Part shown: piece by piece, positions 23,419 to 49,563 of the stretch
Layout: the number at the start of each line of letters is the position of its first letter
Position numbering within the stretch: position 1 is the stretch's first letter
DNA from: Hyphobacterium sp. CCMP332
GTDB taxonomy: Bacteria; Bacteroidota; Bacteroidia; Cytophagales; CCMP332
Assembly (NCBI GenBank): GCA_014323545.1
Contig: CP058647.1
Span: forward strand, 2,954,001 to 3,018,000
Direction of reading: 5' to 3'
DNA length: 64,000 nucleotides
Notes under the pieces: model-generated
Databases searched by the model: none
Told to the model about the DNA's origin: nothing
What the model saw: only the letters and a program-made list of their open reading frames with translations
Translations under genes and position numbers: made by a program

Positions 23419-24642
23419 ATGGCCAATTGTTTCGCATTGATGGGTTGGAGTTTACCTGTCATCGAAAGTATGCAAAAACTCGGCAAATCTTATGTAGTTG
23501 TATCTTTTCCTGATTTTCAGCAATACGCTGATGAAAATAACATTCCCTTCCTTCCTTACACACTGGATGAGTGGAATGATACGTCCAATTCCCTTGATTT
23601 AGCAGAAAAACTAAAACCTTTTAATGTTGATGTAGCTGTTCCATTATTTGAAGAAACAGTAGAATGGGCAGGAGCTTTAAATTCGATTTATAGAAATGAT
23701 CCGCGTGTTCTCAATCGTGCATTTTTGTTTAGAAACAAGGCCATGATGAAAAGAAAAGCCTTAATCGGCGGACTTCGGGTTGGGCTTTTTGAGGAGGTGC
23801 ATAATAAAGAAGGCGTAAAAGCATTTATGAGGCGTTTAAATGAGGCTAATCTTCAATTACCAGGTGAGGAAGATTCCTGGGTACATATTAAGCCTTTTGC
23901 ATCTGCAGGAACTGTAGGGCATCGCTTGTTAAAATCCATGAATGATATCGATGAAAAATGTCAGGATGGTGATTTTCCATGCCTGGCAGAAAGTCACTTA
24001 CCGGGAAGGGAATTTTCTTGTGAAGCCTTTGTGCACAAAGGAAAAATTAAATTTCTGAATATTACGGAGTATGTCAAGCTGGGCTATTCAAATTTTATAC
24101 CTGAGGGACACTATTTGCATTCCAAAAGAGATTTGATAGAGAAACACGTACAAAAACTTGTGGATATTTTTGGGATAGAATACGGAATGGTACATCCGGA
24201 GTGGTTCTTAACCGAAAACGACGAATTAAATTTCGGGGAAACAGCATGTAGAATTCCTGGAGGGCATATTTTAGAATTGTGTGGAAAATCCTATGATTTT
24301 GACGCCCTGGCAGCTTTTGTTTTATGTCACGATCCAAATGCAAGTGATGAAGAATTGGATAATATCTTTCCACCAAAAGATTACAGGCCCGAAAACTACA
24401 ACGGCAACGTAATGATCTATCCGAGGAAATCACAATTTTCTAAACTTGAAATACCAGAGGAATTGAATAATGAACCATATTTTGTGGATCATAACCTGAT
24501 TCCTCCATTATCTACTCAAAAAATCAGTGATAGCAGGGAAGGCTTTGGAAATCATTTTGGGACCATCAATTTTAAAGGTGAAGATCCCGACAGAATGACT
24601 GAATTGCTCCGGCACTATGAACAAGTAGATTTTTATATCTAA
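23419..24642 (+). CDS. ATP-grasp superfamily ligase
   Basis: This 407-residue protein has the three-part plan of ATP-grasp carboxylate-amine/thiol ligases. An N-terminal alpha/beta domain runs to about 110. An ATP-binding part follows, with WVHIKPFASAGTVGHR near 155-170, where the lysine and small loop would contact ATP. The metal-binding end is HPEWF plus NFGETACRIPGG near 258-283, equivalent to the E-x-N-x-R-x-GG pattern. The substrate is unknown. It is the first gene of a run continuing with an unusual hydrolase-like protein, a racemase and the arginine genes, which suggests an amino acid or peptide is ligated. The catalytic call is good; the product is inference. Confidence 0.78.
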   Translation: MANCFALMGWSLPVIESMQKLGKSYVVVSFPDFQQYADENNIPFLPYTLDEWNDTSNSLDLAEKLKPFNVDVAVPLFEETVEWAGALNSIYRNDPRVLNRAFLFRNKAMMKRKALIGGLRVGLFEEVHNKEGVKAFMRRLNEANLQLPGEEDSWVHIKPFASAGTVGHRLLKSMNDIDEKCQDGDFPCLAESHLPGREFSCEAFVHKGKIKFLNITEYVKLGYSNFIPEGHYLHSKRDLIEKHVQKLVDIFGIEYGMVHPEWFLTENDELNFGETACRIPGGHILELCGKSYDFDALAAFVLCHDPNASDEELDNIFPPKDYRPENYNGNVMIYPRKSQFSKLEIPEELNNEPYFVDHNLIPPLSTQKISDSREGFGNHFGTINFKGEDPDRMTELLRHYEQVDFYI

Positions 24643-24663
24643 TCAAAATTTTAATCCTAACAA

Positions 24664-26658
24664 ATGGATGTGATAACCGATACGGTTTACGAAAACTTTG
24701 AAAGAAGTTTTGATGAGTTTAAAAATGCTACTGACCTTACAAAGCAGGAAAAAGCTGCAAAACTTGCAAGTCAAATTGATATCCTGTCTTTATCGAGAAA
24801 CGGTCTGACCTTTTTGTATAAAAAGAGTCTGGAACTTGAAAAAGAAGGTTTTTTCAATGGCACGGCATGGTCGGATCCGGAGAAACTGGTGCCTTTTTTG
24901 GTCAAAGGCACATTACTTAACGGGCACCCCGGTTCGAGTTTTGAAGTTCTATCTGAGCTAAGAATGCTGTATTATTTAAACGAAGAGCTTCCGGAGTCAG
25001 AGCAAAGGTTTTCAAAAGAAACGGCTCAGGATTATATGGAGGAGGTTATTGTTCATAATCTTGAATTTGCATTTAAAGAGATCAGTGAAGAAACCCGATC
25101 TCTTATGTCTGAAAGAGAGATTAAAAAAGCGATCAATCTTTTTGGTTTCCTACTTTCGGAAATTGAGATTAAGGGTATTTTTGAAAAATTGGCATTGGAA
25201 GTTAAACTGACTTGTGAGCAAAGGCCGATCGTTACACGTAAGGCCAGAGAACTGATTCGAATGCTGGATCGTCATTTTGAAGCTGACACAGAGCAGAATA
25301 ATAATCATTTTATTAAAACCTATATAAATGCATTATATGCCCCATCAAAAGGAGCCAGAGAAAATAAAAGCCCGGATGATTATCAAAATTTTGTAGAAAA
25401 CTGTAGCCGAAATACCCTTTACTCTGAAGCTGAGGAAATGGGAGAATACATGAACGCAACCGGTCTGGTTAGCAAATACCATGCAATGCTTCTTAAAAAA
25501 CTGGTAAGCGACACCCCGGAATTGGTTCCTGTATTATTAGATTTAAATGATCAGGGCAAAGCCGAATGGGAGGAGTACAGATTGATGCTGAGCCAATTGA
25601 TTATGGATATTATCCATCCGGAAAATTGTCAGTTTATTTATGGCCTTTCTGAAATGATGCGGAGAAATCTATTCGTAAGAAGAGTTGTTAGGGTCGGCTT
25701 GGAAAATCTCAGAAAAATTAAGATTAATCCACAGGTTGAAAAAAGAATTTTAAAATCAATTGTTAACCCAAGTCCCGGATTATCTGCCATACAATATTTG
25801 ATGAGCGGAGTAATCAGGGTGCTGGGACAACCATTGGGAGTAGGTCAGGGAAACAATCCCACCTGCCAGTCTGCAAGGGGGATAAGTATGTGGAGCCAAC
25901 ACGCACCAGCGAAATTGATCGACATGATTATTACTGTTGCTACTCAAAATAATCTGTTAATTCGATTTGAAAATCACGATCTGGTTTCAAATCAGCTCGG
26001 AAAGGGCCTTTTAGAAAAGCTGGACTATAATCTGGACGTAGTTTCTGTAGTATTGGTCCCTCATCTTGACAAAATATATAACGAAATGATGCGCCGGTCA
26101 TCCGGAAGAACGGAAGATCCTCACAAATGGGTAAACCCGTCGATGTACGGTCATTGGATTCAGGTTGGATTTGCATCCTGTTATGACTATTTAAGCAATT
26201 CCATAATGGATTTCAGTGGGTTTGTCCGAATTTTTTATGCGGCATTTCATCCCGATTATAATGGCAATCGCCATTTGGTTTATCCCAATCCCGTGGGAAT
26301 CTTTATTACAAGTAATAAGGGAGACATGGTTGGGTTTCATGCAATTTCCATGTTAAGAGTTGAAAAAGACAAGGACGATCAAACAAGAGTTTATTTTTTA
26401 AATCCAAATAATGAAGGTCGGCAAAACTGGGGTCAGGAAATAAAACCTTCGGTATACGGTCATGGTGAAAAACACGGAGAGTCATCGCTACCTATTCAGG
26501 AATTTGCAGCCAGGGTGTATGCCTTTCACTACGATCCCTTAATTACCAATTCCTGGATTAGCAATGTGCCTGAGGAAGAGATAATAAAAGTAAAAACATT
26601 GGCTGAACAAAGCTGGGGTAAATCTTATATCTGGAGTCAACAAATTAAGTTATGGTAA
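24664..26658 (+). CDS. Uncharacterised protein with predicted Cys-His-Asn active site
   Basis: I do not recognise this 664-residue family by name. The first 350 residues are helical, without a signal peptide or membrane segment. The C-terminal part reads like a papain- or transglutaminase-type domain. Cys401 lies at the start of a predicted helix (NNPTCQSARGISMW), His559 is in a hydrophobic strand (GFHAISML), and Asn580 is in FLNPNNEG. The order Cys, His, Asn with this spacing is that of cysteine peptidases and acyl transferases. It lies 21 bases after the ATP-grasp gene and overlaps the racemase gene by 7 bases, so all three are probably made together. Function in conjugate cleavage or transfer is inference. 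Confidence 0.55.
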   Translation: MDVITDTVYENFERSFDEFKNATDLTKQEKAAKLASQIDILSLSRNGLTFLYKKSLELEKEGFFNGTAWSDPEKLVPFLVKGTLLNGHPGSSFEVLSELRMLYYLNEELPESEQRFSKETAQDYMEEVIVHNLEFAFKEISEETRSLMSEREIKKAINLFGFLLSEIEIKGIFEKLALEVKLTCEQRPIVTRKARELIRMLDRHFEADTEQNNNHFIKTYINALYAPSKGARENKSPDDYQNFVENCSRNTLYSEAEEMGEYMNATGLVSKYHAMLLKKLVSDTPELVPVLLDLNDQGKAEWEEYRLMLSQLIMDIIHPENCQFIYGLSEMMRRNLFVRRVVRVGLENLRKIKINPQVEKRILKSIVNPSPGLSAIQYLMSGVIRVLGQPLGVGQGNNPTCQSARGISMWSQHAPAKLIDMIITVATQNNLLIRFENHDLVSNQLGKGLLEKLDYNLDVVSVVLVPHLDKIYNEMMRRSSGRTEDPHKWVNPSMYGHWIQVGFASCYDYLSNSIMDFSGFVRIFYAAFHPDYNGNRHLVYPNPVGIFITSNKGDMVGFHAISMLRVEKDKDDQTRVYFLNPNNEGRQNWGQEIKPSVYGHGEKHGESSLPIQEFAARVYAFHYDPLITNSWISNVPEEEIIKVKTLAEQSWGKSYIWSQQIKLW

Positions 26659-27809
26659 GACACTCATCCCGAATAGAGCTGAGTCAATCTTCACTTACGA
26701 GTAATATTAATTTTCTTCGTAAGAAAATCGGTGAAAAGCCCATTATCTCATCGGTGGTAAAAGCCAATGCTTATGGCCATGGAATTCAACAATTTGTAAA
26801 AATGGCCGAAAAGGCCGGTGTTAATCATTTTGCTACTGCATCTGCTTTTGAAGCAGAAGAGGTATTGGAAGTGAAATCGGAAAAGAGTCAAATTATGATT
26901 ATGGGTATTCTATATGAACAGGATATCAAATGGGCTATAGAAAATGACATTGAATTTTATGTATTCAATTATGATCGACTATTAAAAGTATTGGAATTTG
27001 CGAGGGAATTGAATATTCAGGCAAAAGTACATTTAGAGGTTGAAACGGGTGCCAACAGAACCGGATTGCCAGCCAAAGATTTTTCAAAAAGTCTTACTTT
27101 TCTCAAAAAACATTCAAAACATCTCGAATTTACCGGACTTTGCACTCATTTTGGCGGAGCTGAAAGTTTTTCAAATCAATTTAAAATTGAAAGTCAACAC
27201 AAAAAATTTAAAGAGTTCTTAAGGGTATGTAAAAAAAGAAAAATAGTACCTAAACTAAGACATATCGCTTGTTCTGCTGCTGCATTGGCCTATAAGGAAA
27301 CCGTTTATGACTTGGTAAGAATTGGGGTATCACAATACGGATTTTGGCCCAGCCCGGATATTTACTATGCTCATATTTCCGAAACCGGAAAAAAAGGAAG
27401 CGGAGCCCTTAAAAGAATTTTTACCTGGAAAACTGAAGTAATGGATGTCCGCGATGTTGAGATTGGTGAATTTGTAGGTTATGGAACAGCCTATCAGGCC
27501 ACTCATAAAATGAAAATAGCGGTTATGCCTTTGGGGTATTCCAATGGCTATCCCAGAGCGCAATCAAACAGGGGCTTTGTTCTAATTCATGGAAAGAAAG
27601 CGCCAATTGTCGGTCTGATAAATATGAATCTTTTTATGGTTGACGTCACACATATTCCAAATGTTAAAGTTGATGATGAGGTAGTATTGGTTGGACGACA
27701 AAAAAATAACACCATCAATATCAGTTCTTTTACTCAGGTAACCCAACTTATAAACAATGAGATGCTCAGCAGATTACCTGCAGCTATTCCCAGAAAAATT
27801 GTAAAATAA
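26652..27809 (+). CDS. Divergent alanine racemase-family PLP enzyme
   Basis: This 385-residue fold-type III PLP enzyme is of the alanine racemase family. The PLP lysine is Lys37 in VVKANAYGHG, and the second catalytic base Tyr277 in VGYG is present. The PLP-contacting arginine is in VRIGVSQYG. Several positions that are nearly fixed in true alanine racemases differ: GYSNGYPR instead of GYADG, GLINMN instead of GR(V)xMD, and RHIACSAA instead of xxANSAA. It may act on an amino acid other than alanine, which fits its place before the arg genes. It overlaps the upstream gene by 7 bases. Sure of the family, unsure of the substrate. Confidence 0.82.
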   Translation: MVRHSSRIELSQSSLTSNINFLRKKIGEKPIISSVVKANAYGHGIQQFVKMAEKAGVNHFATASAFEAEEVLEVKSEKSQIMIMGILYEQDIKWAIENDIEFYVFNYDRLLKVLEFARELNIQAKVHLEVETGANRTGLPAKDFSKSLTFLKKHSKHLEFTGLCTHFGGAESFSNQFKIESQHKKFKEFLRVCKKRKIVPKLRHIACSAAALAYKETVYDLVRIGVSQYGFWPSPDIYYAHISETGKKGSGALKRIFTWKTEVMDVRDVEIGEFVGYGTAYQATHKMKIAVMPLGYSNGYPRAQSNRGFVLIHGKKAPIVGLINMNLFMVDVTHIPNVKVDDEVVLVGRQKNNTINISSFTQVTQLINNEMLSRLPAAIPRKIVK

Positions 27810-27838: not shown

Positions 27839-28630
27839 GTGATCAAATATGGCGGCAATGCTATGATTAATGAAAAGGTTAAAAATTCAGTGATTTCAAA
27901 TATTGCAGAATTACAAAACCTTGGATATAGAATAGTAATTGTTCATGGGGGGGGGCCATTTATTAAATCAATTCTCGACAAAGTCAAGATTGAGTCAAAG
28001 TTTGTTGCCGGCCACCGAAAAACGAGCAAGGAAGCTATTAAATATATAGAAATGACCCTAAGGGGAGAAGTAAATACGGAAATTGTAATGCTTCTCAATA
28101 ATAAAGGAAGAAAGGCCATAGGTCTTTCCGGAAAAGATGCGGGACTGGCCATTGCCAAACGCAGATATCATGAGGAAAAAGGTAAAAAAATTGATATAGG
28201 ACTCGTAGGAGATATTGAAAAAGTAGACCCCCAAATTTTATACGATTTACTTGAAAAAAATTATACGCCGGTTATTGCTTGCATAGCTGCAGATACAAAA
28301 GGCAATACTTATAATGTAAATGCGGATATGATGGCCGGTGCAATTGCCGGAGCCTTGAAAGCCGACGAATACATAGTCCTTACCGATACAGATGGCTTGA
28401 GAAAGGATAAAGACAAGGCCGAATCTTTGATCGAAATCATATCCTCAAAGGAGGTTCAAAGACTTTTTGGCTCAAGTATACAGGGAGGAATGATTCCGAA
28501 AATTGAATCATGTCAAATTGCATTAAAAAATGGTGCTGCAAAAGCAAGAATAATAAATGGGACTGAAATTGATATTTTATTAAAAGCACTCAATCAGAAT
28601 TCAGTGACAGGGACGATAATTACAAAATAA
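27839..28630 (+). CDS. argB: Acetylglutamate kinase
   Basis: This amino-acid-kinase-family enzyme phosphorylates N-acetylglutamate, the second step of ornithine synthesis. The glycine loop KYGGNAM, HGGGP, the NADMMAGAIAGAL stretch and LTDTDGL are intact. The first standard start is GTG 27839, giving 263 residues beginning right at the first strand. In-frame codons further upstream, with no ATG, GTG or TTG back to the stop at 27758, would encode KNQRKTIVIKYGG, which looks like the normal family N terminus. The true start may therefore be a rare codon such as ATT (27809 or 27812) or CTG (27815). A run of nine G (27947-27955) encodes part of HGGGP. It directly abuts argD. Confidence 0.9.
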   Translation: MIKYGGNAMINEKVKNSVISNIAELQNLGYRIVIVHGGGPFIKSILDKVKIESKFVAGHRKTSKEAIKYIEMTLRGEVNTEIVMLLNNKGRKAIGLSGKDAGLAIAKRRYHEEKGKKIDIGLVGDIEKVDPQILYDLLEKNYTPVIACIAADTKGNTYNVNADMMAGAIAGALKADEYIVLTDTDGLRKDKDKAESLIEIISSKEVQRLFGSSIQGGMIPKIESCQIALKNGAAKARIINGTEIDILLKALNQNSVTGTIITK

Positions 28631-29827
28631 ATGACCTATTCTACAAAAGAACTACACGAAATAGACGCCAAGTATTACCTGCCTACCTTTAAAAGGTATC
28701 CCCTTGCATTTAAAAAAGGAAAAGGGTCCAGGTTATGGGATATGGAAGGTATTGAATACATTGATGCACTTGCCGGAATAGCAGTAAATAATGTTGGGCA
28801 TTCACATCCCAAAGTTGTGCAAGCCATTTGTAATCAGTCGGCTAATCTAATTCATATATCCAATTTCTATTTAAGTGAAGCGCAGATGAATCTCGCAAAA
28901 ACACTGGCTGAATTATCCGGACTTCAACGAGTGTTTTTTGGCAATAGCGGTGCAGAAGCCGCTGAAGGGGCCATAAAAATTGCAAGAAAATACGCTTACA
29001 AAAATGGGAGAGGTGGAACCATTATCACTATGAAAAATGCATTTCACGGCAGGACAATGGCCACAGTGGCGGCAACTGGAAAAAAAGCCATGATGAAGGG
29101 TTTTGACCCCATTCCAAATGGTTTCTGCCATGTTCCCTTTAATGATATTTCCATTCTCAGAGAAAAGGTTAACAAGGATACTGCAGCGATAATGCTAGAA
29201 CCCATACAAGGTGAAGGTGGAATAAATCCAGCGGCTAAAAAGTTTTTAAAGGATTTACGTGAATTCTGCAATGAAAAAAACATTGTCCTGATTTTTGATG
29301 AAATACAATGCGGGATGGGAAGAACGGGAAAAATGTTCGCACATGAGCATTTTGATGTAAAACCGGATATAATGACGCTCGCAAAAGCTTTGGGAGGTGG
29401 AGTGCCTATTGGCGCGGTACTGGCTTCTGAAAAAGTGGGTACCAGCATAGATTGGGGAGATCACGGAACTACTTTTGGAGGTAACCCACTAGTATGTGCA
29501 GCGGCTTTAGCTACACTTCAGGTCATTAAAGATGAAAATTTGTTGGAGGAAGCTACGAGAAAAGGAGAATGGCTAAAATCCAAAATCGAAAATATCAAGA
29601 AAGACTATCCAGAGATAGTAGAAGTAAGAGGTTTGGGATTGATGATTGGGATAGAACTAAATATTGACTCAAAACCAATTGTAAACAAGATGATGAAACA
29701 CAGAGTTTTAGCCAATGCCACAGCTGGAAATGTTATCAGGTTGGTACCCCCACTAAATATTTCTGGGGAGGATTTGGAAACTGTCTTAAAGGTATTACTT
29801 AAATCAATAGAGGAGGAAAGAGCATGA
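28631..29827 (+). CDS. argD: Acetylornithine aminotransferase (ArgD/RocD family)
   Basis: This 398-residue class III aminotransferase converts N-acetylglutamate semialdehyde to N-acetylornithine. The family motifs GNSGAEA, FHGRT and IFDEIQCGMGRTG are present, as is the PLP lysine in LAKALGGG. Family members are hard to tell from ornithine and succinylornithine aminotransferases by sequence alone, but the flanking argB and argC settle the role. It starts on the base after the argB stop and overlaps argC by four bases (ATGA). Confidence 0.93.
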   Translation: MTYSTKELHEIDAKYYLPTFKRYPLAFKKGKGSRLWDMEGIEYIDALAGIAVNNVGHSHPKVVQAICNQSANLIHISNFYLSEAQMNLAKTLAELSGLQRVFFGNSGAEAAEGAIKIARKYAYKNGRGGTIITMKNAFHGRTMATVAATGKKAMMKGFDPIPNGFCHVPFNDISILREKVNKDTAAIMLEPIQGEGGINPAAKKFLKDLREFCNEKNIVLIFDEIQCGMGRTGKMFAHEHFDVKPDIMTLAKALGGGVPIGAVLASEKVGTSIDWGDHGTTFGGNPLVCAAALATLQVIKDENLLEEATRKGEWLKSKIENIKKDYPEIVEVRGLGLMIGIELNIDSKPIVNKMMKHRVLANATAGNVIRLVPPLNISGEDLETVLKVLLKSIEEERA

Positions 29828-30855
29828 GAAGGATGAGAATAGGAATAGTTGGTGCCACAGGATTTACAGGTTCGGAACTCGTTCGTTTACTTATTAACCA
29901 CCCCGAAGTAGAAATCACCGCTATAACTTCAGAAAGTAGAAAGGGAGAGGAATTTTCAGATGTCCATCCACAATTTCTTGGGTTAATAAACAATAAGCTC
30001 ATCAGTATTAATGATCTGCCAAAGGATCTTGACATTGTTTTTTTGGCCTTGCCCCATGGTGTTTCTATGGACTTTGTAAAGGCGCATCATCAGGATTACA
30101 GGATCATTGACCTTTCCGGAGACTTTCGATTATCGGGAAAAAACGTTTACGAATATTGGTATAAAAAAGACCATGTATATGCAGATGGTTTTGCAAAAGC
30201 TGTATATGGCCTTCCGGAATTGTACAGGACTTCAATTAAAGTTGCGAAATTAGTTGCCAATCCAGGTTGTTTTCCTACGTCGGCAATATTAGCCCTGGCT
30301 CCATTATTTGCTAATCAACTTGTAAGTAAAAATCATATAATCATAGATTCTAAAACCGGAGTTACAGGTGCGGGGATAAAGGTCAGACCAAATACTCATT
30401 TTTCTATGGTCAATGACAATTTTACAGCCTATGGCATCAAATCACATCGACACAGCATAGAAATACAGGAAAAGCTTGAGGAACAGCAAAAAGGAGATTT
30501 ATCCGTTCTTTTTACCCCGCATTTACTTCCTGTGGATCGTGGAATTTTATCGACATGTTATACCAAACCTAGGGAGAAAGTCGGGGATAAAACTTTAAAT
30601 TCAATGTATTCAGCTTTCTATAAAGACGAACCTTTCATTCGTTTGAGAAAAAGTCTTCCAAATTTAAAAGAAGTCAGAGGAACCAATTTTGCCGATATTT
30701 TTGTCACATATGACGAAAGAACGGATACCATTATATCAGTGGCAACGATTGACAACCTTGTGAAGGGAGCTGCAGGTCAGGCAATACACAATATGAACAT
30801 AATGCTGGGTTTTGAAGAAAAGCTCGGCTTGAATCAAATACCACTTCAACCATAA
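29824..30855 (+). CDS. argC: N-acetyl-gamma-glutamyl-phosphate reductase
   Basis: This 343-residue NADPH-dependent reductase makes N-acetylglutamate semialdehyde. The Rossmann motif GIVGATGFTGSELVRLL is near the N terminus, and the catalytic cysteine sits in ANPGCFPTSAIL near residue 150. The conserved HRHSIEI and FTPHLLPVDRGI follow. The start at 29824 overlaps argD by four bases; an ATG at 29833 would begin at MRIGIVG and is also possible. Its place between argD and argJ fits the acetyl-cycle order. Confidence 0.94.
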   Translation: MRRMRIGIVGATGFTGSELVRLLINHPEVEITAITSESRKGEEFSDVHPQFLGLINNKLISINDLPKDLDIVFLALPHGVSMDFVKAHHQDYRIIDLSGDFRLSGKNVYEYWYKKDHVYADGFAKAVYGLPELYRTSIKVAKLVANPGCFPTSAILALAPLFANQLVSKNHIIIDSKTGVTGAGIKVRPNTHFSMVNDNFTAYGIKSHRHSIEIQEKLEEQQKGDLSVLFTPHLLPVDRGILSTCYTKPREKVGDKTLNSMYSAFYKDEPFIRLRKSLPNLKEVRGTNFADIFVTYDERTDTIISVATIDNLVKGAAGQAIHNMNIMLGFEEKLGLNQIPLQP

Positions 30856-30873
30856 ATTATATAAATTTTGGAC

Positions 30874-32091
30874 ATGATAAGGAATATAACGAACGTCAGA
30901 GGAATTAAATGCTGGGGAGCGCATACAGGAATTAAATCCATGCGTCGGGATCTTGCAATTATATACTCCGATGTTCCTGCAAAAGTAGCTGCAACATTTA
31001 CTCAAAACATTGTACTTGCAGAACCGATAAAACTATCCAAACTGCATTTAAAAAAATCAGGAGGTAAGGCTCGAGCAATTGTTGTCAACGCCGGAAATGC
31101 CAATGCCGTAACTGGGGAGCAGGGAAAAGAAGGCGCAATTGCAATGGCGAAGGCCACCGCAGAAGAATTCAATATCAATATAGAAGATGTGCTTGTGGCT
31201 TCAACCGGAATAATTGGAAAACCCTTTCCGACTGAAGATGTGGTGAATGGAATTAAAGAGAATGTCAAGAATGTTTCAAAAAACTCCCGGGCAGGTTCTT
31301 TTGCTGCCAATGCCATTTTAACGACCGATACATTTGCCAAAGAGGGTTTCGTTGAATTTGAAATTGATGGTAATACCATTAATATCGGCGGAATTGCAAA
31401 AGGATCGGGTATGATTCACCCTAATATGGCGACAATGTTGGCATTTGCTTTTACCGATATCAATATTGAGCAAAAACTTTTGGAAAAAGCTTTTAAAGAA
31501 GCAGTCGATGATTCCTTCAATATGATAACTGTGGATGGAGATACTTCGACAAATGACATGGCATCGATAATGGCAAATGGCCTGGCCGACAACGATATGA
31601 TCAATTCAGCCAATGACCCATATTACAAGTTGTTTAAGGAAAAACTGAATGAATTAATGGTGCATTTGGCTAAATTGATTATTTCTGATGGAGAAGGCGC
31701 CTCAAAATTCATAGAATATCAATTGACCGGTGCAAAAAATAAAAAAGATGCCAGAAAAATGGTAAGAGTCGTATCTGATTCATCGCTGGTAAAGACCGCA
31801 ATTTTCGGGCGAGACCCTAATTGGGGAAGAATTTTAGCGGCTATGGGCAGGTCCGGCGTTAATTTTGATCCCTCAAGGGTTGATCTTTTCCTTGGAAATC
31901 AAGTCGAAGAAGTTCAAATGCTCGATTTTGGCAAACCTCTTGAATTTGATATCAATCGTTTAAAAAGAATCTTAAAGAAATCGGAAATTATAATTCAAAT
32001 CAAACTCCGGGAAGGAAAAGCCAATGCAAGAGCATGGGGGACAGATCTCACTACTGACTATGTAATGTTCAATTCGATGTATACAACTTAA
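30874..32091 (+). CDS. argJ: Bifunctional ornithine acetyltransferase / N-acetylglutamate synthase
   Basis: This 405-residue self-cleaving enzyme moves the acetyl group from acetylornithine back to glutamate. The cleavage region KGSGMIHPNMATML is intact, and the threonine of MATML becomes the nucleophile and new N terminus of the beta chain. Further motifs are VDGDTSTNDM and GRDPNWGRI. Its presence shows that this arginine pathway recycles acetyl groups and is not the succinyl pathway of Bacteroides. I chose ATG 30874 over a TTG six bases earlier. It ends the arg run; argF, argG and argH are not in the window. Confidence 0.94.
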   Translation: MIRNITNVRGIKCWGAHTGIKSMRRDLAIIYSDVPAKVAATFTQNIVLAEPIKLSKLHLKKSGGKARAIVVNAGNANAVTGEQGKEGAIAMAKATAEEFNINIEDVLVASTGIIGKPFPTEDVVNGIKENVKNVSKNSRAGSFAANAILTTDTFAKEGFVEFEIDGNTINIGGIAKGSGMIHPNMATMLAFAFTDINIEQKLLEKAFKEAVDDSFNMITVDGDTSTNDMASIMANGLADNDMINSANDPYYKLFKEKLNELMVHLAKLIISDGEGASKFIEYQLTGAKNKKDARKMVRVVSDSSLVKTAIFGRDPNWGRILAAMGRSGVNFDPSRVDLFLGNQVEEVQMLDFGKPLEFDINRLKRILKKSEIIIQIKLREGKANARAWGTDLTTDYVMFNSMYTT

Positions 32092-45656: not shown

Positions 45657-47452
45657 TCTCTGATATCGGTAGTGTCTGATAATTCAGGATTTGGAATAAT
45701 TATTTCCACACTATCAATTTCAAAAACAGAACTTCGACTAAAATTATTAAGCAAATCGACTTTAGGCCTGTATCCTACAGGGGCAATTTTACCATCTCTT
45801 ACTTTCATTAATGGTGCCATGGCATTAAAATTTCCTAATGAATAGTCTATACCGCTAAAAATAAAACCCTTCCTGTAGTTTTCGTTTTTCAAACCTTCTT
45901 GAAAGTACTTGCCGTATTTAAATAAGGAAAGACCAAAGTGCATCATAATTTCAAAACCTGTTTCAGAATAGAAATCAGGCATTTTTTCAAAATCATATTG
46001 CATTCTATATCGCTGATAATAATTCTTACTATAATCAATATAATCCGGATAGGGAAAGTAAACATGTCTTCTTTCAAACTGGACTAAATCAATATTATCA
46101 TATTCCAACCATCTTGACAGTCCTAAAATTTTTACCTGACTATTGCCTGCTTCAACAGCGCTGATGATTCTGCCAATAACTTCTCGGTTTGTTGTAGTTA
46201 CGAACATATTTGTAAAGTCTTCTATGTGAGAACTGTCACCAAACAGATCAAGTAATTGGCCGGGGCTTGTTTTGTCAAAAACAATGATAGTATCTAATGT
46301 TTTGCCTTCTGCTTTTAAATGGTTATAAATTATGGCGGCCATTGCTGTATCTGTAGCTGTTTTATCCATTACAAGTATGTTGATAGCTGCAGAATCACCC
46401 AATAGACTGTCCAAAGCAAATTGTACCTGAATCCTGCTTAAATGTTGATAACTTGGCTGGAATAAATAAGCATATGGGTTATCTGCAATATACTCTTCAT
46501 TTTGGGTAAAGGGATTGACTACGATAATCTGATTTTCCAAACCAAAATTGAGCATCATCTCACTTAAATTGGGATACAATGGACCAATAATTAAGTCGGC
46601 TTCGAGTGTTATGTTTTGATCCAGAATCTGACTTAATACTGAAGTATCTCCTCGTGTATCAAAAGGCCTGATGTTTAATGAAATGCCCTGTTTTTTAAGG
46701 CTGTCTGCGGCCTGAAGTATTCCGGCATAAAACTCATAAGCAAATTTGTTTTTTTCATATTGTATTTTCGATTTTACAGCAGGGTATTTGAATGGTAAGT
46801 ATACGGCAATATTATAGCTGTCTTTAAATACTTTTTGATCGGGTTCGGACCTGTTTAATCCGGCAGGATCAAAATTAAATACATCGATAAGGCTTTCCAG
46901 AAGAATCATATCCTCTTCATTACCTGTATTTTGTTGCAACAGTTGGGCAAAACGATAGGCTAATACTTCATCATTGGGAAATTGATCATAAAGTTTTCTC
47001 AGAACTTCAAGATCATCATATTTCATCAAATAGTATATTTTGACATTATTGCTATTGAGGAAAAGATTTTCAGTTTCAATCATCGAAGCATAATTCAAAG
47101 CCAGTGAGGGTTCATTGGCATGGAAATAACAAATTGAAAGGAGATATCTCGCCTCATCGATTCCTTCCCAATAAGAATATCTGGTAGTTATTTGCAACAA
47201 CATTTGTCTCGCCTGAAAAAAAAGCGAATCATTCATTGAGGCAATAGAATAAAGATAAGCTGCCTGTTCTTTATATTGGTTTTCAGGATCGTTATTGGCA
47301 ATCGGCAATAATATTTGCATCGCCAAATCATAACTTTCTTTTTCCAAATATGACTTTCCAAGAAAAAACCTACTGGCATAATCCTGTTGTGCATAGCTTA
47401 ATAAACTAATAATGATTAGAAAAACTAAAAGAATGATTTTCTTTATTCCCAT
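45653..47452 (-). CDS. TPR plus periplasmic-binding-fold protein (LpoA/YraM-like)
   Basis: This 599-residue exported protein has a signal peptide (1-21) and a tetratricopeptide-like helical part to about 190. A two-lobed type 1 periplasmic binding fold follows ([27 protein letters not shown], then [14 protein letters not shown]-type segments). This order is that of LpoA/YraM, which activates penicillin-binding proteins in Gamma-proteobacteria. In Bacteroidota such proteins are often annotated as amino-acid binding proteins. There is no transporter nearby. It overlaps the end of guaA by ten bases. Confidence 0.75.
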
Positions 47453-48972
47453 TCGATTGTCGCTGGAGGTTTTGAACTTATGTCAAATACAACTCTATTC
47501 ACGCCTTTTACTTTATTGATTATGTCATTTGAAATTCTGGCAAGAAAATCATAAGGAAGCCTGCTCCAATCTGCAGTCATTCCATCATGGCTGCTTACTG
47601 CCCTTAAAGCTATCACATTTTCATAAGTTCTTTCATCTCCCATTACCCCAACGGATTGAACCGGTAAAAGCATCGCTCCGGCTTGCCATACTTCGTTGTA
47701 CAAATTATTCTTGTGGAGTCCTTCAATAAAAATGTCATCAACTTCCTGTAAAATCCTGACTTTTTCAGAAGTAATATCGCTAAGAATTCTAATGGCCAGG
47801 CCTGGACCCGGGAATGGATGTCTGTTGAGTATGTTTGGATCAAGATTTAATGCCTGACCTGCTTTTCTAACTTCATCTTTAAACAAAAATCGTAGAGGTT
47901 CGACAACTTTTAAATTCATTTTATCGGGTAATCCACCGACATTATGATGAGATTTTATAGTTGCTGAAGGCCCTTTTACAGAAACAGATTCTATAACGTC
48001 CGGATAAATAGTTCCCTGTGCCAGCCATTTTACATCTTTTATCTTATGGGCTTCTTCATCGAATACTTCAATAAATGTCTTTCCAATAGCTTTTCTTTTT
48101 AGTTCCGGATCGCTTATTCCTTCAAGTGCCTTATAAAATTGCTCTTTAGAATCTACACCGATCACATTTAAACCCATATCGCGATAGGAGTGAAGCACTT
48201 TTTTAAATTCGTTTTTGCGCAGTAGGCCGTTGTCTACAAAAATACAGAACAGCTGTTTTCCGATTGCTTGTTGTAACAACATGGCAGCAACACTTGAATC
48301 CACACCACCTGAAAGGCCAAGCACCACCTTGTCATTTCCCAGTTGGGATTTTAGTTTATAAATGGTCTCTTCAACAAAATGTGCGGGTGTCCAGTCCTGA
48401 GAACATCCACAAATATTCACAATAAAATTATGCAGAATTAATTTCCCCTCTTCTGTATGGGTAACTTCCGGATGAAATTGTATGCCAAACGTTGCTTCGT
48501 TTGAAAAACTGTATGCTCCCACTTCCACATCCTCAGTAGAAGCAATAATTTCAGCACCCTCAGGTAAGGTTTTGATTGTATCTCCATGAGACATCCAAAC
48601 TTGAGAATTATTGGCTATGCCTCTGAATAATTGATTTTCCTGATGTATGCTTACTAAGTGAGCTCTTCCATATTCTCTGGTATTTGATCTTTCGACCGAG
48701 CCACCATTGGTTTTGGCCAGATATTGAGCTCCAAAACAAATTCCCAATAAAGGGATTTTACCTCTTATATACTTTAGATCTAATTCGGGTGCTTCGGTAT
48801 CGTGAACCGAGCAAGGACTTCCGGAAAGTATAATTCCCTTAATTTCGGGATTAAGCACGGGGACCTTGTTATATGGATATATTTCACAAAAAACATTCAA
48901 CTCTCTAACGCGTCTGGCTATCAGTTGAGTGTATTGAGAACCAAAGTCCAGGATTACTATTTCTTCAGGCAT
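47443..48972 (-). CDS. guaA: GMP synthase (glutamine-hydrolysing)
   Basis: This 509-residue enzyme converts XMP to GMP with glutamine and ATP. The N-terminal glutaminase has the nucleophile cysteine in GICFGAQ and the catalytic HPE in [11 protein letters not shown]. The ATP pyrophosphatase loop [12 protein letters not shown] follows near 222, and the dimerisation domain ends with [10 protein letters not shown], the usual GuaA C terminus. Length is normal. A TAGTTTTG lies just before the ATG on this strand but without a -33 element, so the promoter is not certain. Confidence 0.97.
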
Positions 48973-49457: not shown

Positions 49458-49465
49458 TAGCTTTG
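49458..49465 (+). promoter_or_regulatory. -7 element of the SRP RNA promoter
   Basis: TAGCTTTG matches TAnnTTTG exactly and ends five bases before the predicted RNA 5' end at 49470. The -33 region reads CTTTTC rather than TTTG, so only the -7 element is clear. Confidence 0.6.
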
Positions 49466-49469
49466 CACT

Positions 49470-49563
49470 GCGGGTTGGTACGACCAGCTCCTGCTGAATC
49501 CCCCAGGTCTTGACAGAAGCAAGGGTAGGCGGTTGTAGCGGTGCGATATCAGCTCGCTTTTTT
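49470..49563 (+). ncRNA. ffs: Signal recognition particle RNA (4.5S-type)
   Basis: This small SRP RNA is the partner of Ffh in membrane targeting. The terminal stem is formed by 49470-49479 (GCGGGTTGGT) and 49548-49557 (ATCAGCTCGC), which pair over ten positions including G-U pairs. The Ffh-binding domain reads CAGG, stem TCT, tetraloop TGAC, stem AGA, then AGCA, which is the conserved internal-loop order of domain IV. The tetraloop is of the URRC class instead of the common GGAA. A run of seven T follows the closing stem and serves as terminator. The gene is about 95 bases long and lacks an Alu domain. Confidence 0.93.

Follow-up and report, generated by a model that had tools for sequence, protein, structure and literature searches.

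A putative ligase, papain-like protein and racemase module joined to ornithine genes in Hyphobacterium sp. CCMP332

The closest described systems and the locus

In the glutathionylspermidine synthetase/amidase, an ATP-grasp ligase is fused to a papain-like amidase that acts on the same small conjugate. The amino acid ligases RizA and BacD are part of antibiotic-dipeptide pathways, and we know of no papain-like partner for RizA, BacD or the related structure BL00235. A 64,000-nucleotide stretch of the Hyphobacterium sp. CCMP332 genome (contig CP058647.1, positions 2,954,001 to 3,018,000; hereafter the window) contains genes for an ATP-grasp ligase (LIG), a papain/calpain-like protein as judged from its model (CYS) and a member of the alanine racemase family (ALR), followed by argB, argD, argC and argJ. 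The pairing of an ATP-grasp ligase with a papain-like enzyme is shared with the glutathionylspermidine system, but the latter is one fused protein, whereas the module consists of two genes and its second product has a calpain-like domain. An earlier sequence-only reading of this DNA had placed a 21-base gap between LIG and CYS, a 7-base overlap of the ALR start with the CYS stop and a direct run into argB-argD-argC-argJ, and the open reading frames agree with it exactly, all seven genes lying on the plus strand. With this three-enzyme kit joined to ornithine genes, the locus points to an ornithine-derived small molecule that has yet to be described.

Three further systems come near this arrangement. 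According to the available part of PMC8070244, the non-ribosomal dipeptide osmolyte N-acetylglutaminylglutamine amide (NAGGN) is encoded by a small operon (asnO, ngg and an aminopeptidase gene) with an acetyltransferase, an asparagine synthetase-like protein and an aminopeptidase. A small operon with an acetyltransferase and a peptidase is a point of likeness, a divergent GNAT gene being found at 23 of 28 Bacillota loci of the module. However, the asnO and ngg pair was not found among the seven window genes, which include no asparagine synthetase, GNAT or aminopeptidase family and contain ornithine genes instead. Predicted peptide-synthesis operons in the available text of PMC2922099 combine ATP-grasp ligases, papain-like transacylases, GNAT proteins and ornithine-generating enzymes, and the general idea of an operon with a ligase, a papain-like enzyme and ornithine-generating enzymes is the same. 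In contrast, the neighbourhoods given in that text are centred on a methionyl-tRNA-synthetase paralogue, acyl carriers or oxygenase-cupins, and the LIG-CYS-ALR-arg set is not among them. Among acetylated diamino-acid solutes, N-epsilon-acetyl-lysine has been reported as a compatible solute of a Planococcus, where an acetyltransferase makes it (PMC4685198). Planococcus also carries LIG-CYS, but this solute is based on lysine rather than ornithine, and the available part of the same report describes no ligase or papain-like enzyme for it. In the open-access literature, no system was recognised as a LIG-CYS-ALR-arg set, osmolytes with acetylornithine or D-ornithine included.

Conservation of the module and its linkage to ornithine genes

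A species-level genome scan with short peptide patterns found 92 loci with a relative of CYS. Because the patterns came from one protein and 80 of the 92 loci were kept, the scan favours close relatives. Together with the window's own locus, three genomes of a phylum sample and one Halomonas replicon, these make up 85 distinct loci. The Halomonas locus, which came from a plasmid collection, has LIG-CYS without ALR. In every one of the 81 evaluable loci, LIG is the gene immediately upstream of CYS, on the same strand and no more than 700 bases away. Four loci (L041, L047, L050 and L059) are not evaluable owing to contig ends, and L049, in which the CYS frame is broken and LIG ends 268 bases before CYS, was counted by hand. 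The carriers of LIG-CYS belong to Bacteroidota, Bacillota, Halomonas and, as a metagenome-assembled genome (MAG), Gemmatimonadetes. A CYS tree of 81 loci, from which L041, L049 (arg-linked), L050 and L059 were excluded because of short CYS frames, separates a Bacteroidota-type clade from a Bacillota-plus-Halomonas group. ALR follows CYS in 55 of 56 Bacteroidota-type loci (52 tree rows and the four excluded ones), the exception being the Gemmatimonadetes MAG (L046), and in none of 28 evaluable Bacillota-type and Halomonas loci (27 of them Bacillota-type; L070 ends too soon). The co-occurrence check proposed with the sequence-only reading has thereby been run and favours the module: the three genes do stand together in Bacteroidota-type loci, LIG-CYS is fixed across phyla, and linkage to arg genes recurs. 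Among 28 Bacillota-type loci, 23 have a GNAT gene facing away from LIG (L057 does not extend far enough to tell), and a second CYS copy is present in 8. The module is rare: a sample of 296 genomes from the whole phylum contained four with it, one of them the own genome.

At least 15 of the 85 loci have arg genes of the argJ type no farther than 7.5 kb from CYS, about one being expected by random placement. This count is a lower bound because some loci are short; L086 and L088, for instance, are too short to show arg genes, and their argJ (one only a fragment) and CYS lie on different contigs. On the 81-row CYS tree the arg-linked state requires at least eight changes, and at least four gene orders relative to the module are seen. 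The arg genes follow the module (LIG-CYS-ALR-argBDCJ) in the window, in Marinoscillum-type loci and in Phaeodactylibacter, precede it (argBDCJ-LIG-CYS-ALR) in two Saprospirales-type MAGs and in genome G227, and are divergent from it in L022 and L049. The Bacillota order is LIG-CYS-argC-argJ-argB-argD-CYS2, and once argJ alone stands between two CYS genes. The latter case, a Neobacillus (L078), is without argB, argC and argD at the locus and has a second argJ with argC elsewhere in the genome. In two Cyclobacterium loci (L032 and L033), which are outside the 15, argB, argC and argD of the canonical type (33-39% identity) lie within a few kb on the opposite strand. Chance adjacency of the module genes is excluded by the invariable LIG-CYS pairing together with the recurrence of arg linkage above expectation.

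The sequence-only reading had left it open whether the arg genes supply ornithine or arginine. The own genome is a single contig and 98.4% complete. Its single argC lies in the LIG-CYS-ALR-argBDCJ operon, and its only carbamoyltransferase is the aspartate enzyme PyrB (403 bits), next to a putative PyrR gene. A genome search found no ornithine-type carbamoyltransferase and no argG (argH was not searched for), the only argG match being the GMP synthase GuaA (47443-48972), which just reaches the cut-off when frame neighbours are added. An arginine operon, with carbamoyltransferase, argG and argH leading to arginine, was thus not recognised. Because argG is missing and PyrB is the only carbamoyltransferase, argBDCJ should end at ornithine and not at arginine, as far as gene content can tell. 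Ornithine supply therefore stands, and arginine as the end product in this genome was rejected, with no argF or argG found. From the same gene content, Hyphobacterium sp. CCMP332 is probably an arginine auxotroph that still makes ornithine.

Among 42 module genomes, five are without a full argG match (the own genome, L012, L018, L022 and L039), and arg linkage is seen in four of these five and in 8 of the 37 genomes that do have argG (Fisher p 0.018; this and the following p values are indicative only, carriers and controls sharing ancestry unevenly). The 42 include 26 with LIG-CYS-ALR, of which 23 have argJ (L039 as two pieces) and 17 have at least two argC. In the 296-genome sample, argJ occurs in 122 genomes, and the own genome is the sole one of its order and class to have it; at least 20 others of the same order (11) or class (at least 9) have neither CYS nor argJ (Fisher p 6e-10, n=20). 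A canonical cluster of argG, argC, argB and a carbamoyltransferase lies apart from the module in five of five mapped regions (L124-L128), and in nine unlinked genomes (L129-L137) an argD-argC-argJ cluster surrounds argJ, with argB included in seven. One carbamoyltransferase of a canonical cluster was tested; it scored 269 bits as the N-acetylornithine type, short of the cut-off of 288, and at most 153 as the ornithine type. The N-acetylornithine carbamoyltransferase route to arginine bypasses free ornithine. Because such a route skips free ornithine, the presence of a second, dedicated arg set would be explained.

A few loci deserve separate mention. A protein of about 270 residues and of no clear family (the L012 copy was scanned) directly follows ALR at L003:13143-13961 and L012:13134-13934, and also in L004. 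The record titled Chryseobacterium sp. ISL-80 (L052) has a Bacillota-type module with GNAT, LIG and two CYS but no ALR, and the CYS tree places it among the Bacillota; its name may be wrong. In a MAG titled Rickettsiales (L002), both the module and the arg genes closely resemble their Marinoscillum pacificum (L003) counterparts; this MAG is probably mislabelled or mis-binned. The recurrent neighbours of the module in Planococcus, namely an HD domain protein, an ABC protein, a HEAT protein and a member of a vitamin transporter family, look like ordinary synteny.

Predicted activities of the gene products

LIG is supported, on the basis of its AlphaFold2 model, as an ATP-grasp enzyme with a fold nearest to that of the L-amino-acid dipeptide ligases. 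The model has a predicted local distance difference test (pLDDT) score of 90.5, and structure comparison (VIA) gave Z scores of 32.5 for BL00235, 32.4 for RizA and 30.2 for YwfE/BacD, followed by 4dim (28.2) and PurK/PurT (up to 27.6). The likeness to the dipeptide ligases extends over the whole length of the ATP-grasp fold (Z 29.4-32.5 over 368-383 residues). RizA was also top-ranked by Foldseek, and its structure 4wd3 headed a search of PDB sequences with a profile of 44 LIG proteins (E 4e-11), ahead of a PurD-like protein and BL00235; in the profile alignment LIG and RizA have a GE...RI.GG stretch in common. The Pfam family ATP-grasp_4 (PF13535) matches the window LIG weakly (E 4e-5, 23.6 bits, under the cut-off of 27), and no NCBIfam cut-off is reached. 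The LIG of L068 exceeds the same Pfam cut-off with 42.8 bits, yet it too reaches no NCBIfam cut-off. RizA makes dipeptides with N-terminal arginine, according to the available part of PMC9321006.

CYS matches no Pfam entry (to E 1) and no NCBIfam family. At the sequence level, it was not recognised as a member of the calpain family (Peptidase C2), either in Pfam or against solved calpains in the PDB, and PDB sequence searches with CYS and with a CYS profile gave nothing useful, the profile matching no chain at E 10. In the AlphaFold2 model (pLDDT 88.3) the first 350 residues are helical. When residues 360-623 were compared with known structures (VIA), ranks 1-18 were all calpain cores, followed by staphopain and other papain-like enzymes, but their Z scores of 6.5-7.8 are under the safe level of 8, below which a match may reflect a common arrangement. 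The best Foldseek match was likewise weak (E 0.088). Because Z stays below 8, the fold call rests on the structural match in combination with the catalytic residues. The Cys-His-Asn site predicted by the sequence-only reading for this 664-residue protein is confirmed in so far as Cys401, His559 and Asn580, together with Gln395, are invariant in a 52-row alignment and then in every one of 82 CYS rows as well as in all eight second copies. These residues follow the order of papain, and the glutamine lies six residues ahead of the cysteine, as it does in papain. The C-terminal domain of the CYS model looks papain/calpain-like.

ALR had been called a divergent alanine racemase, and this description holds. 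Both alanine racemase domains (PF01168 and PF00842) are above cut-off, TIGR00492 scores 285 bits, and the hallmarks of the family, namely the pyridoxal phosphate (PLP) lysine, the catalytic tyrosine and the two-domain architecture, are present. Lys37, Arg136, Arg223 and Tyr277 are kept in 49 of 49 rows, so that ALR retains the catalytic lysine and tyrosine and the PLP-binding arginine of the alanine, serine and lysine racemases of fold-type III. Unlike strict alanine racemases, however, ALR does not have tyrosine at the position of Geobacillus Tyr354. This gate position is occupied by Asn in 41 rows, Gln in 4, Ala in 2 and Thr in 1, with one gap, so that tyrosine is found in none of the 48 rows with a letter, and the Met134 position is Ala, Thr or Gly. 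In the paralogue ALR2 the gate is tyrosine in 12 of 12 sequences. The gate residue has been linked to specificity: the available part of PMC3485190 gives Asn for the serine racemase VanT and Thr or Ala for lysine-preferred and arginine racemases, residues also found in ALR rows, and that of PMC4517790 associates Gln with a broader substrate range. Because the gate is never tyrosine, the predicted substrate of ALR is not alanine, or not alanine alone. That ALR is the sole alanine racemase of the genome was rejected, since the C-terminal domain of this family occurs in two more genes, one of them in an 822-residue frame.

The four arg genes all exceed their NCBIfam cut-offs, and family membership supports argJ as the gene that closes the route to free ornithine. 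A second racemase cluster lies outside the window in the own genome (G000:C1:1706946-1712170, which is L142:4947-10171). It comprises a GNAT gene, a sodium-solute symporter, an M20 amidohydrolase, ALR2 and an ornithine-racemase-like (Orr-like) gene, the families being taken from the homologous cluster of Marinoscillum sp. MHG1-6 (L131), where the same five genes, the first two swapped, lie directly before argBDCJ. Of the 29 module genomes in the phylum, 28 have an Orr-like gene (E <1e-80), compared with 5 of 20 controls (p 1e-7). Because three controls have symporter-GNAT-Orr, though without M20 and ALR2, the cluster is not exclusive to the module; several mapped module genomes are likewise without M20 and ALR2. 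A PDB sequence search with the Orr-like protein gave nothing useful.

Table 1. Genes and predicted functional residues at the locus (window positions)
Feature	Position	Strand	Description
LIG	23419-24642	+	ATP-grasp dipeptide-ligase-like enzyme, 407 residues
CYS	24664-26658	+	664 residues; helical N-terminal half, C-terminal papain/calpain-like domain (residues ~360-623)
Gln395 of CYS	25846-25848	+	Invariant; six residues before Cys
Cys401 of CYS	25864-25866	+	Predicted nucleophile; invariant
His559 of CYS	26338-26340	+	Predicted catalytic base; invariant
Asn580 of CYS	26401-26403	+	Predicted third catalytic residue; invariant
ALR	26652-27809	+	Fold-type III PLP racemase, alanine racemase family, 385 residues
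Asn369 of ALR	27756-27758	+	At the Geobacillus Tyr354 position, substrate-size gate
argB	27839-28630	+	N-acetylglutamate kinase; TIGR00761 E 4e-67
argD	28631-29827	+	Acetylornithine aminotransferase family; TIGR00707 E 4e-152
argC	29824-30855	+	TIGR01850 E 4e-126; sole PF22698 match in genome
argJ	30868-32091	+	Ornithine acetyltransferase; TIGR00120 E 2e-138; sole PF01960 match in genome

Promoter and terminator scans gave scores no better than those of shuffled sequence. The sole match in an Rfam scan of the window is a distant Bacteroidales-type small signal recognition particle RNA (49463-49561, plus strand, 78 bits), with nothing at the locus.

Proposed pathway and alternatives

The seven genes may form one dedicated pathway to a dipeptide or amide that contains ornithine and perhaps a D-amino acid and that is possibly a compatible solute, a reading that we regard as evenly balanced between right and wrong. 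The conserved gene set, the dedicated ornithine supply and a ligase of the dipeptide-ligase fold are its supported parts; we infer ornithine as a substrate of LIG, a D-residue from ALR, an amide-modifying role of CYS and the role as a compatible solute. By family membership, ArgB, ArgC, ArgD and ArgJ would convert glutamate to free L-ornithine by the acetyl-cycling route. LIG would activate one amino acid as an acyl-phosphate and couple it to another, ornithine being one of the partners. ALR, with a pocket predicted to be widened, would supply or use a D-amino acid, not alanine or not alanine alone, and D-ornithine is one possibility. CYS, probably cytosolic, may act on the LIG product as a transpeptidase or amidase to complete, trim or recycle the conjugate. 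The product would most likely be a small dipeptide or amide with ornithine as a component, building up inside the cell. Its foremost candidate role is that of a compatible solute, since many of the carriers appear to be marine, saline or soda-lake bacteria; this role would rest mainly on the carrier names and on the analogy with the NAGGN operon.

Several observations weigh against this pathway. No argJ-type arg gene was seen nearby in 70 of the 85 loci, some of which are short. Five of the 42 module genomes have no argJ match (L012, L048, L051, L061 and L062), L012 having no match to argC and argG either, and of the four genomes that combine arg linkage with a missing argG, three are MAGs and so possibly incomplete. 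Furthermore, other classes of the phylum often have argJ but no module (of 296 genomes, 122 contain argJ and 4 contain CYS). Since all argJ genomes except the own one, 121 in number, come from such classes, the presence of the module cannot be deduced from argJ by itself. The uneven ancestry of carriers and controls counts on the same side. ALR is absent from L046 and from all 28 evaluable loci of Bacillota and Halomonas, so the LIG-CYS chemistry cannot require a D-residue unless a different racemase takes the place of ALR. The Orr-like gene is found in 5 of the 20 controls too, and because it has a strong match in only 1 of 15 Bacillota-type module genomes, its link with the module is confined to one phylum. 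Since none of 65 genomes passes the NF040742 cut-off of 480 bits (own genome, 338 bits), the name Orr is a lead only. Finally, LIG differs from RizA, BL00235 and BacD in sequence, its identity to characterised ligases being only 13-20%.

Among the alternatives, an unlikely one is a make-and-break cycle on a protein or peptide, in which LIG adds an amino acid to an end or side chain, CYS removes it and the arg genes are unrelated neighbours. Such systems exist elsewhere, as with tubulin tyrosine ligase and vasohibin, or RimK. The resemblance of CYS to proteases of the calpain/papain fold, its long helical half, which could bind a protein, and the restriction of the invariant core to LIG-CYS would all fit such a cycle. 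However, LIG is nearest over its whole length to dipeptide ligases of free amino acids, and the linkage to ornithine genes in two phyla together with the linked racemase points to small metabolites.

It is also unlikely that the genes form a scavenging or detoxifying set, in which CYS would cut imported ornithine peptides or amides, ALR and the Orr-like racemase would convert D- to L-forms and LIG would re-use the fragments. The position of the Orr-like gene beside a sodium-solute symporter, a GNAT gene and often an M20 amidohydrolase suits uptake and breakdown, but ornithine made from glutamate next to the module indicates supply and not degradation only. Quite unlikely is an ordinary use of ornithine, with argBDCJ serving proline, polyamine or other known needs (arginine in relatives) beside an unrelated module. 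The four arg genes are all of textbook families; on the other side, arginine is an unlikely product in the own genome, where no argF or argG was found, five mapped relatives have a separate arginine cluster, and the recurrent linkage is far above chance. Finally, the module could make a D-amino-acid component of the cell wall or the extracellular space, fed by ALR in the role of a spare racemase for alanine or serine. This reading would draw on ATP-grasp ligases and alanine racemases as cell-wall tools and on a gate that is mostly Asn as in VanT (available part of PMC3485190), but it is quite unlikely given LIG-CYS without ALR in Bacillota, Halomonas and the Gemmatimonadetes MAG, another alanine racemase in the 822-residue frame (the length of the MurF-Alr fusion model) plus a third, and ornithine genes recurring beside the module with no cell-wall gene recognised among the scanned neighbours.

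The dedicated ornithine pathway may be part of something wider. Tentatively, and with rather less confidence, it would represent a new class of ornithine-based compatible solutes or storage dipeptides, which in Bacteroidota would include a D-residue. A dipeptide ligase would make such compounds and an unclassified papain-like transpeptidase would finish them, and they would be common to salt-adapted Bacteroidota, Bacillota, Halomonas and others, the second arg set of Bacteroidota being kept because their arginine route bypasses free ornithine. If the pathway is as proposed, it would account for the retention of argBDCJ in a genome without argF and argG and for the two arg sets of many related genomes, and it would give a first function to the conserved CYS family, which neither Pfam nor NCBIfam matches. 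The pathway is small and is found in culturable, named type strains, and its product is accessible to metabolomics. Should it prove to be an osmolyte, marine and soda-lake bacteria would have a further candidate compatible solute, a new one.

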